Shown here: piece after piece, positions 44,473-47,060 of the stretch
Numbering within the stretch: position 1 is the stretch's first letter
Layout: each line of letters starts with the position of its first letter
Assembly (NCBI GenBank): GCA_903854335.1
Contig: CAINVY010000013.1
Span: 124,001 to 188,000, forward strand
Origin: an uncultured Candidatus Peregrinibacteria bacterium
GTDB taxonomy: Bacteria > Patescibacteriota > Gracilibacteria > Peribacterales > Peribacteraceae
DNA: 64,000 bases
Direction of reading: 5' to 3'
Position numbers and translations under genes: made by a program
The notes under the pieces: generated by a model
Told to the model about the DNA's origin: nothing
Database searches by the model: none
The model's input: only the letters and a program-made list of their open reading frames with translations

Positions 44473-46133
44473 CAGTAGACGGAGGAAAGGTAACATGACT
44501 CACAGTAGACGATTTCGGGACGATCGGGAGCATACGTTGTTTGGATCTTGGTTGAGCACTTTGCGCATGTGCGAGTCCAGAGTGTGCGGGGAGTGCGGGC
44601 GGCGAGGCGTTCTTTCAAGCGTTGTTCGGGGCACTTGCGCGGCAAGGGAATGTCCAGCTGTCGGTAGATTCTCAATTCCTGCGGAATGATCTTGAAAGGT
44701 TTGTCGGTCGCTTCGCACGTGATGATCTTCTGGCAGACATCGGCATCGGCATCGGCGATGTTGTCGGGGATCGATGCGATCGGACCTAAGTAAGTGGATT
44801 CGGTATCCTTCTGTTCTTCCCATGCCCATCCCCGTTTCGTTGCATCCTCTTTCGAGAGCGGGAAGTAATCTTGCGCGACGGTTTCGTTGTAGCCGAAGGG
44901 CGAAATGTTGATCGGGAAAAACTCTCCCCACTCAGAGGTCTTACGCATGTGCTCGATGATCTTCGGAACCAACGTCTCATACTCTTCCTTCGTGTATTGC
45001 ATATTCAGAATGCAGTACTCCTTATGCTGCAAACCGACGCAACCGAAGATGGAGCGACACGCATGGCAGCTGCTGGAGTTGAGAGCGTCAGCGCAGCTGA
45101 AATTGAGGAAGCAAAACGATTGTCGCTGGTTGTGATAGCTACCGAAGTACTCGTAGCAGAGTTCTTCCTCTTCCGTGAAGTTGCAGTCGGCACAATCCTT
45201 CGCATCGATCAACTGCGCTACGTGACGGCAGTCATGACAACGTTGGACATCATAGCCGCTGCGGATATTTTTGCTCTGGTAGATGTAATTTCCCGTCGAT
45301 TCTTCGCTCTGGACCAAGACGGCTGCGCGATGAGGGAGACGCAGGCGCGTCTCTTCGAACTTCTTTCTCAGAGCACAAACAGTAGAGTACTTCGTGAGAT
45401 CCCTTTTCTTTTCCTGAAAAACTTCCGGGGAAACAGGTTCGTTGAAGATGCGATAGTTGGCATTGCGCAGCCCCGTACAGCCGATGCAGTGTGAGCAGCC
45501 TTCGCAGTCGGCACAAGAGAAGAGGTCGGAGCAGTTCACACAGTCGCGGCAGAAGGCACAGCCATAGCATTTCTCGCAGGTGATGCACTCGCAGCAAAGT
45601 TCGCAATTGCGAATCAGCAGCGAGTCGATGCAGGATACGGAGTAGTAGGGATTTCCGTAATAGCAATCCTGGCAGTACACGGATCCGAAAATCAGGTAGC
45701 AATTTTTTGAAGTGGCGACGTAGTTCGTATAGGTGCAGTTCTCATTGTTATATTCGGAGAGCGCGAGAGCAGGGACTTGCTGTTGCAGGGATGCGTACTG
45801 TTTGAAGAATGATTTTGTGAAGTCGAAGGCTCGGCCGAAGGTGACGGCATCCCATTTTTCGCTGAGCCACTCCTCGCGCTGAAAGACTCTGAATGGTTTA
45901 TTGGGTGAGTACGCCGAGATGATTTGTCTCCCCGTTGCATCACACTTGCGGTGGTAGAGTTTGCGTTCATTACGGAATGCGAATCGGCGCTGCATGCGGC
46001 AGTCGGGACACAGTGTCGGCGGAGGAATCAGCTCCTTCTTACCCGCAAACTCCGGTGAAATCTTTTCGTAAAATTTCAGATCATCAGGTGTGATCTCGAA
46101 GGGGGCCGAACACTGCTTGCAAAGAGTCTGCAT
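44472..46133 (-). CDS. Cys-rich array protein P12, first gene of the large unit
   Basis: 553 residues. A1: CKQC (5-8), CPDC, KCDATGRQIISAY. B1 ends CSHCIGCTGLRNANYRIFN, with a changed tail (VSPEVFQEKK). B2: EESTGNYIYQSKNIRSGYD, SCHACRSIFGCVGLQHKEYC, NMQYTKEEYE. A2: CEATDKPFKIIPQEL, RKCPEQRL, CAKC, CESCYLSSVY. The start is set by homology with P8-P11; a TTG 13 codons upstream (46172) is less likely, and my base count at 46131-46141 was ambiguous by one. Promoter near 46260-46288, leaving a leader of about 120 bases. Confidence 0.85.
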   Translation of the reverse strand: MQTLCKQCSAPFEITPDDLKFYEKISPEFAGKKELIPPPTLCPDCRMQRRFAFRNERKLYHRKCDATGRQIISAYSPNKPFRVFQREEWLSEKWDAVTFGRAFDFTKSFFKQYASLQQQVPALALSEYNNENCTYTNYVATSKNCYLIFGSVYCQDCYYGNPYYSVSCIDSLLIRNCELCCECITCEKCYGCAFCRDCVNCSDLFSCADCEGCSHCIGCTGLRNANYRIFNEPVSPEVFQEKKRDLTKYSTVCALRKKFEETRLRLPHRAAVLVQSEESTGNYIYQSKNIRSGYDVQRCHDCRHVAQLIDAKDCADCNFTEEEELCYEYFGSYHNQRQSFCFLNFSCADALNSSSCHACRSIFGCVGLQHKEYCILNMQYTKEEYETLVPKIIEHMRKTSEWGEFFPINISPFGYNETVAQDYFPLSKEDATKRGWAWEEQKDTESTYLGPIASIPDNIADADADVCQKIITCEATDKPFKIIPQELRIYRQLDIPLPRKCPEQRLKERLAARTPRTLWTRTCAKCSTKIQTTYAPDRPEIVYCESCYLSSVY

Positions 46134-46259
46134 ACGAAAACAGAAAATCGATGAGGATCGAGTTTCTGCCAAGGCGTATTCTCCGCCGCATCGTCAAATT
46201 AGTCCAACAGCATAGAGAAATCGATTGAAATTCGTCTATTTAAAGCCAAAATCATGAAA

Positions 46260-46300
46260 AATATAATGTAGAAAATAATCTACAACAATGATACTATAAT
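46260..46300. promoter_or_regulatory. Divergent promoter region with operator-like inverted repeat
   Basis: Minus strand: TTGTTG (46288-46283), 17 bases, TATATT (46265-46260), driving P12. Plus strand: TATAAT (46295-46300) for the TrmB-type gene. TGTAGA-N6-TCTACA (46267-46284), a perfect inverted repeat, fills the P12 spacer and covers the -35 region of the plus-strand promoter. One bound protein could therefore control both; the adjacent TrmB protein is the natural candidate. Confidence 0.6.
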
Positions 46301-46301
46301 A

Positions 46302-47060
46302 GTGGTGATTACCGAACTCCTCTCTCTCGGCCTTACGGATGAAGAGGCCAAAGTGTACCTCGCCTGTCTCGAGATCAATGGCGGTCCAGTATCTGTGATC
46401 GCTCGCAAGGCGGGAGTGCATCGTGTCAGCTGCTACCACACGATCGAGAATCTGCTCGAGAAGCGTTTGCTCTCCATGCACACAAAGAACGGCGTGAAGT
46501 TTTTTTCGCCCGAGCCCCCTGAACAACTCGAACGCATTGCTGCAGAGAAAGTATCCGTTGCACGACGTCTTCTTCCCGAGCTCAAGACGCTCCAGAGCGC
46601 GCTTGCATTTCAACCGAAGATTCGCACGTATGAGGGGAGGGAGGGAGTGGAGCGTGTGTTCCGCGAGTCGCTCTCTTCGAAGAAAGAAATTCTCGGGTAC
46701 ACGAACCTTAAGACCGTCACGGAGTTCTTCCCGGCGTTTTTTCGAGAGTACACCGCTGAGCGATTCCAGAAGGGGATTAAGTGTCGCTACCTCTCACCCA
46801 ACTCTGTCGAGAGCGTGCATGTCATCGATCCGTTTCTGCCGAAAAACTTCGATCCCAACCTCATCGAGATCCTTCTCGTGAATCGCGATCAGTTCCCTTT
46901 CAGTAACGAAGTGCTGATTTTTGGCAACACGGTGGGCATCGTGTCGCTCAACAAAGACGAACTCCTCGGTCTCCTCGTCGAGAGCGCGACGTTCTCTCAA
47001 ACGATGAAAGCGGTGTTCGATTTGGCTTGGCTTGGCGCCACCGCCTTCGTCGCAAAGTAG
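46302..47060 (+). CDS. TrmB-type transcriptional regulator, divergent from P12
   Basis: 252 residues from GTG (46302 or the next GTG at 46305). Winged helix at residues 4-65 (LLSLGLTDEEAKVYLACLEI, AGVHRVSCYHTIENLLEKRL), a coiled linker (RIAAEKVSVARRLLPELKTL) and a C-terminal domain with RTYEGREGVERVFRESLSSK and FSNEVLIFGNTVGIVSLNKD, as in the TrmB_C/PLD-like effector domain. It differs in the C-terminus from the other two regulators here. The -10 box ends two bases before the first GTG, so the mRNA may be leaderless. Confidence 0.83.
   Translation: MVITELLSLGLTDEEAKVYLACLEINGGPVSVIARKAGVHRVSCYHTIENLLEKRLLSMHTKNGVKFFSPEPPEQLERIAAEKVSVARRLLPELKTLQSALAFQPKIRTYEGREGVERVFRESLSSKKEILGYTNLKTVTEFFPAFFREYTAERFQKGIKCRYLSPNSVESVHVIDPFLPKNFDPNLIEILLVNRDQFPFSNEVLIFGNTVGIVSLNKDELLGLLVESATFSQTMKAVFDLAWLGATAFVAK

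Follow-up and report, generated by a model that had tools for sequence, protein, structure and literature searches.

TetR/TetA and the LysR-type regulators are the classical bacterial examples of divergent, autoregulated pairs of a regulator and an operon. The locus described here lies in a 64,000-nucleotide stretch of DNA that was analysed as a whole (the window), and it resembles such pairs in that a regulator gene is divergent from its presumed target operon and carries a palindrome at its own promoter. It differs from them in that about 105 bp separate the operator from the operon start, with no shared overlapping promoter.

The regulator belongs to the TrmB family. In archaea, TrmB, TrmBL1 and Tgr bind palindromic operators, TACTN3AGTA and the TGM, TATCACN5GTGATA; autoregulation has been proposed for Tgr, and members of the family act as activator or repressor according to the position of the site (PMC4158304). 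The present locus shares with these systems a TrmB-type winged helix-turn-helix (wHTH) and an operator that is a short palindrome within the promoter region. However, the palindrome here is TGTAGA-N6-TCTACA, the promoter is bacterial, no sugar-binding subdomain was found, the adjoining genes form a Cys-rich array instead of sugar genes, and there is one site per genome rather than a regulon. Another member of the family, TrmBL2, is an archaeal chromatin protein without a sugar-binding domain which binds coding and intergenic DNA broadly (PMC4158304). The protein studied here has the same domain order as TrmBL2 (5box, 5bpi) and a similar length (251 versus 264 aa), whereas its predicted target is a single conserved and specific operator adjoining its own gene.

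The named relatives, Candidatus Peribacteraceae/Peregrinibacteria, are part of the CPR. Transcription control in CPR/Patescibacteria is little studied, and our literature search found no paper joining TrmB, 'Candidate Phyla Radiation' and transcriptional regulator. The locus thus represents a local regulator of a classical type, and we found no description of such regulation in this group; it offers a predicted regulator, operator and target in uncultured organisms. Its interest, which we consider moderate, rests on the host group, on a natural swap of specificity and on a target array for which no fold match was found.

The palindrome and its conservation

The initial annotation had reported a perfect inverted repeat beside the TrmB gene, and such a repeat was indeed found at 46267-46284. 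This predicted TrmB operator (O1, no strand assigned) reads TGTAGAAAATAATCTACA, and its conserved core on the minus strand is TGT-TGTAGA-N6-TCTACA. The perfect palindrome is unique both in the window and in the 1.17-Mb genome, where a whole-genome search gave a second site with one mismatch and a GC-rich spacer. A genome-wide regulon was considered and rejected, since the genome holds no second perfect site and extra sites are rare in relatives; two of these rare sites precede genes of another TrmB clade. An Rfam search of 45900-46500 gave no match to an RNA element up to E=1.

When the 171-bp intergenic region was shuffled with its dinucleotides kept, a perfect 6-6-6 inverted repeat appeared in 4.4% of the shuffles, and 35% had a perfect inverted repeat of 6 bp whose spacer measured 0-10. 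Because shuffled sequences so often hold some 6-bp inverted repeat, the palindrome in a single sequence is weak evidence, and the strong evidence in its favour is its conservation in relatives.

The comparison set consisted of 74 Peribacteraceae genomes, about 28 of which carry an orthologue of the window TrmB (69-98% identity). The search upstream of the orthologous operons showed that the palindrome was kept with 0-1 mismatch in 25/25 aligned TrmB/array loci, and that its right arm, TCTACA on the P12 strand, was invariant across them, although the region around it had mostly changed. In the nearest relative (L159) all 18 bases are identical, and a further orthologue, lying at a contig end (L015), has two mismatches. 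Where a genome carries the orthologue, the perfect palindrome is almost always confined to this locus, and scattered single matches occur in genomes lacking it. In all pairs examined, TrmB is divergent from an array of Cys-rich P12-family paralogues of about 555 aa. That the repeat arose by chance in AT-rich intergenic sequence, for which the 35% of shuffles might speak, is therefore extremely improbable: the same sequence stands at 25/25 loci amid changing surroundings, and where it changes, the recognition helix of the protein changes with it, as shown below. The palindrome very probably serves the adjacent TrmB protein as its operator.

The TrmB protein and its recognition helix

The TrmB-family regulator (46305-47060, plus strand) is a protein of 251 aa with a GTG start, in which a winged helix is followed by a linker helix and then by a PLD-like domain. 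Residues 7-72 matched PF01978 with 31.2 bits against a cut-off of 25.6 (2e-07), and the Pfam profile search gave no second domain above cut-off. The AF2 model (pLDDT 90) showed the same three parts, and its best structural match over the whole length was TrmBL2, with Z about 14 and 15-16% identity. For the C-terminal domain the best matches were phospholipase D proteins, along with the initial portion of the effector domain of TrmB; the PLD-like part aligned only to residues 110-239 of TrmB 2f5t, where the protein ends, so that no C-terminal sugar-binding subdomain was detected beyond it. With a TrmB domain only and a TrmBL2-like fold, the sugar-type induction proposed in the initial annotation is unsupported, and any inducing ligand would be hypothetical.

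The recognition helix spans residues 40-52 and reads RVSCYHTL in the window. Its Y44 and H45 align with Y50 and D51 of P. furiosus TrmB, which are both listed as DNA-binding residues (PMC4158304). A TrmB dimer would read the two TGTAGA half-sites through the RVSCYHT part of this helix.

Comparison with other TrmB clades showed that helix and operator change together. In the clade of the window TrmB, 24/24 loci combine the helix RV[SG][CA]Y[HY]T with TGTAGA-type sites. A sister clade, 40-50% identical and likewise divergent from P12 arrays, has the helix RVVCYKIL at 10/10 loci, together with TGTAGT or TGTAAT half-sites in the same place. One protein, L156 (3_bin.90), was placed with the sister clade in the tree (89/94 support) and has a sister-type body, yet both its helix, RVSCYHTL, and its operator, TGTAGAAAATATTCTACA, are of the window type. 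Such joint changes are hard to explain unless TrmB reads this site, and the correlation amounts to about one evolutionary change plus L156. As a natural swap of helix and operator, L156 points to the residues that set TrmB specificity. In two members of a distant TrmB clade with the helix NRITVHS (L122 and L123, from G048 and G052), TGTAGA-N6-TCTACA stands just before the start codon; the same palindrome with a different helix means that RVSCYHTL is not the sole way to read the site.

Other TrmB clades have dyads of their own in their own upstream regions. One clade that occurs in many Peribacteraceae genomes (L074-L101, e.g., L077, L084 and L093) does not adjoin P12 genes, and its members often have TGTTGT-N8-ACAACA upstream as what appears to be their own operator. 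On a Gracilibacteria contig with in-frame TGA codons, where TGA probably encodes Gly, a TrmB gene with 38% identity (L158) is divergent from P12-family genes, with no TGTAGA palindrome near its start codon.

Promoters and other elements of the intergenic region

On the TrmB side, a -10 element lies at 46292-46300 on the plus strand, with TACTAT (46292-46297) assigned by homology and TATAAT (46295-46300) overlapping it. It is conserved (-13 to -8 of the logo), lies 8-13 bp from the palindrome and is aligned in relatives. In the window the start codon follows the -10 by 4-8 nt, and with so few bases between them the TrmB transcript is probably leaderless. In four relatives (L005, L012, L014 and L028) the palindrome is 149-475 bp from the TrmB start codon and extra sequence stands between promoter and start codon, so these relatives have either a stretched promoter geometry for TrmB or a long TrmB leader. 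The -35 position of TrmB falls inside the palindrome, as had been stated in the initial annotation, and no TTGACA-like hexamer is found there. A palindrome over the -35 region is standard geometry for autorepression: once bound, TrmB would occupy this region and repress its own promoter. The proposed autoregulating repressor fits well with a conserved palindrome just upstream of the TrmB -10, at the regulator's own promoter and retained in orthologues, while repression itself is deduced from this geometry and conservation. On these grounds we consider it highly likely that the palindrome is a TrmB operator with a role in autoregulation.

On the P12 side, the results argued against the promoter proposed earlier, TTGTTG-17-TATATT. 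On the minus strand TTGTTG lies at 46288-46283 and TATATT at 46265-46260, with a 17-bp spacer at 46266-46282. The palindrome had been described as filling this spacer and does cover 16/17 of its bases; its 18 bp nevertheless extend beyond the spacer, into the final two bases of TTGTTG. Across relatives, the -10 of this pair fitted TAnnnT in 2/23 scored loci, one of which is the window itself, and the sixth base of TATATT, which should be an invariant T, was random. By contrast, a second element farther out, TTGGAC-N18-SANNNT, was present in 24/25 loci, beginning 58-61 bp past the palindrome. Its two key -10 positions, A2 and T6, were kept in 24/24 and its spacer was exactly 18, and the corresponding place in the sister clade holds a near-consensus TTGACT-16/17-TAnnnT. 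The earlier promoter assignment is thus probably wrong. The likely promoter of the P12 operon is at 46178-46207 on the minus strand (TTGGAC 46207-46202, N18, GAGAAT 46183-46178), followed by the P12 ATG at 46133; relative to the inferred P12 start, the palindrome is centred about 105 bp upstream. The operator stands 58-61 bp from the P12 -35 in the window clade, and the sister clade has distances of 62-78. A helical phasing between operator and promoter, considered on the basis of the 58/59/61 spacing in the window clade, was dropped in view of the sister-clade range. The P12 leader of L045, L050, L052 and others carries a hairpin-like GCTGGGGC...CTCAGC after the -10, which is absent from the window.

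A candidate second site (O2), TGTTGGAC-N5-TGAC, covers the P12 -35 and part of the spacer (46193-46209, minus strand). It resembles the extended left half-site of the palindrome, TGTTGGACA versus TGTTGTAGA, at 7/9 positions, and the sister clade has TGTA-N10-TACA-like dyads in the same place. This half-site likeness, together with the sister-clade dyads, suggests a second TrmB contact over the P12 -35; the element could be such a weak contact or the site of another protein. Its classification as a general promoter type was rejected, since the genome holds one exact copy and copies in relatives are mostly at the same locus.

A second, imperfect dyad of the TTTTGGCTTA-N4-TAAGCCAAAA type lies at 46230-46251 on the minus strand; its left half is kept in the window. 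A dyad of this type is found at most of the 25 loci and is missing from several relatives that keep palindrome and P12 promoter. Perfect copies of TTGGCTT-N4-AAGCCAA were found in 40/74 genomes of the family versus 0 matches with the reversed control, and this dyad may be a regulator binding site or an attachment site. It was rejected as an array-specific operator, with copies also near recombinase, topoisomerase and other genes. Some of its copies are within a block 78-90% identical among L130, L138 and L140, and the dyad in L138 follows a serine-recombinase ORF at a distance of about 140 bp.

Probable control of the Cys-rich array

The array (22042-46133, minus strand) contains 12 P12-family paralogues and is divergent from TrmB, and four further paralogues lie elsewhere in the genome. 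From 46133 to 34470 the genes overlap or are separated by gaps of at most 5 bp, and this part is probably one operon. Its first gene, P12 (44472-46133, minus strand), encodes a CxxC-rich protein of 553 aa whose ends gave weak CxxC zinc-finger matches below the cut-offs. No curated family scored above cut-off for the P12-family proteins, and the AF2 model of P12 (pLDDT 79, low in the middle part) gave no match among PDB folds. The model of the family has a pTM of 0.82, and the Cys-rich middle part may form a solenoid. Being tied to a dedicated regulator, the array is suggested to be expressed conditionally.

We consider it likely that TrmB controls P12, acting on the array from a distance. The idea of a repressor that also governs the large operon remains plausible given the constant divergence of the two genes, a site that is nearly unique per genome and the narrow spacing; what is unlikely is occlusion of the spacer. 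In that model, TrmB would block P12 within TTGTTG-17-TATATT while repressing its own promoter. Both hexamers stand 17 bp apart in the window, L159 keeps TATATT at the same spacing, and the TGT preceding the palindrome is conserved. Nevertheless, TTGTTG is a poor -35, and an unconserved -10 combined with a conserved distal promoter makes a steric block improbable; at about 105 bp from the P12 start, the operator is also too far away for simple occlusion.

With regard to the sign of the effect, we lean slightly towards repression, in which TrmB on the palindrome would bridge to a second, weaker contact at the P12 -35, on the TGTTGGAC-N5-TGAC element that is dyad-like in the sister clade. The opposite sign, with TrmB repressing its own gene and activating the P12 operon from a site centred at about -105, is a serious possibility that we rate somewhat lower. 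The core promoter of P12 is weak, with TTGGAC, an 18-bp spacer and a -10 that never begins with T; relatives keep this weakness, as would be the case for a promoter that depends on an activator. The 58-61 bp spacing of the window clade would also suit an activator, and archaeal TrmBL1 and Tgr are activators at upstream sites and repressors at overlapping ones (PMC4158304). However, the conserved element running over the -35 into the spacer looks more like a repressor contact, and the spacing from operator to promoter varies in the sister clade. Rather unlikely, in our view, is that the palindrome serves TrmB autoregulation alone and that another factor, for example one bound to the TTTTGGCTTA dyad or to TGTTGGAC-N5-TGAC, controls P12. 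The palindrome does adjoin the TrmB -10 and is far from the P12 promoter, and many genomes of the family carry the TTGGCTT dyad, but its absence from several relatives and the maintained divergent linkage and narrow spacing of TrmB and array speak against this.

In some relatives, different TrmB genes occur along one Cys-rich array, each divergent from a P12-family block and each with its own dyad. We tentatively propose that Peribacteraceae hold orthogonal TrmB-operator pairs, one per array block, which would allow the blocks to be expressed independently. If so, growth of the arrays would have gone along with duplicated and re-specified TrmB-operator pairs, providing a natural series of specificity changes. 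In G057 (L044) the array is interrupted by four TrmB genes, and the three examined have the distinct dyads TGTAGA, TGTAGT and TTTGTCTA..TAGACAAA; in G036 (L041) three TrmB genes lie along one array.
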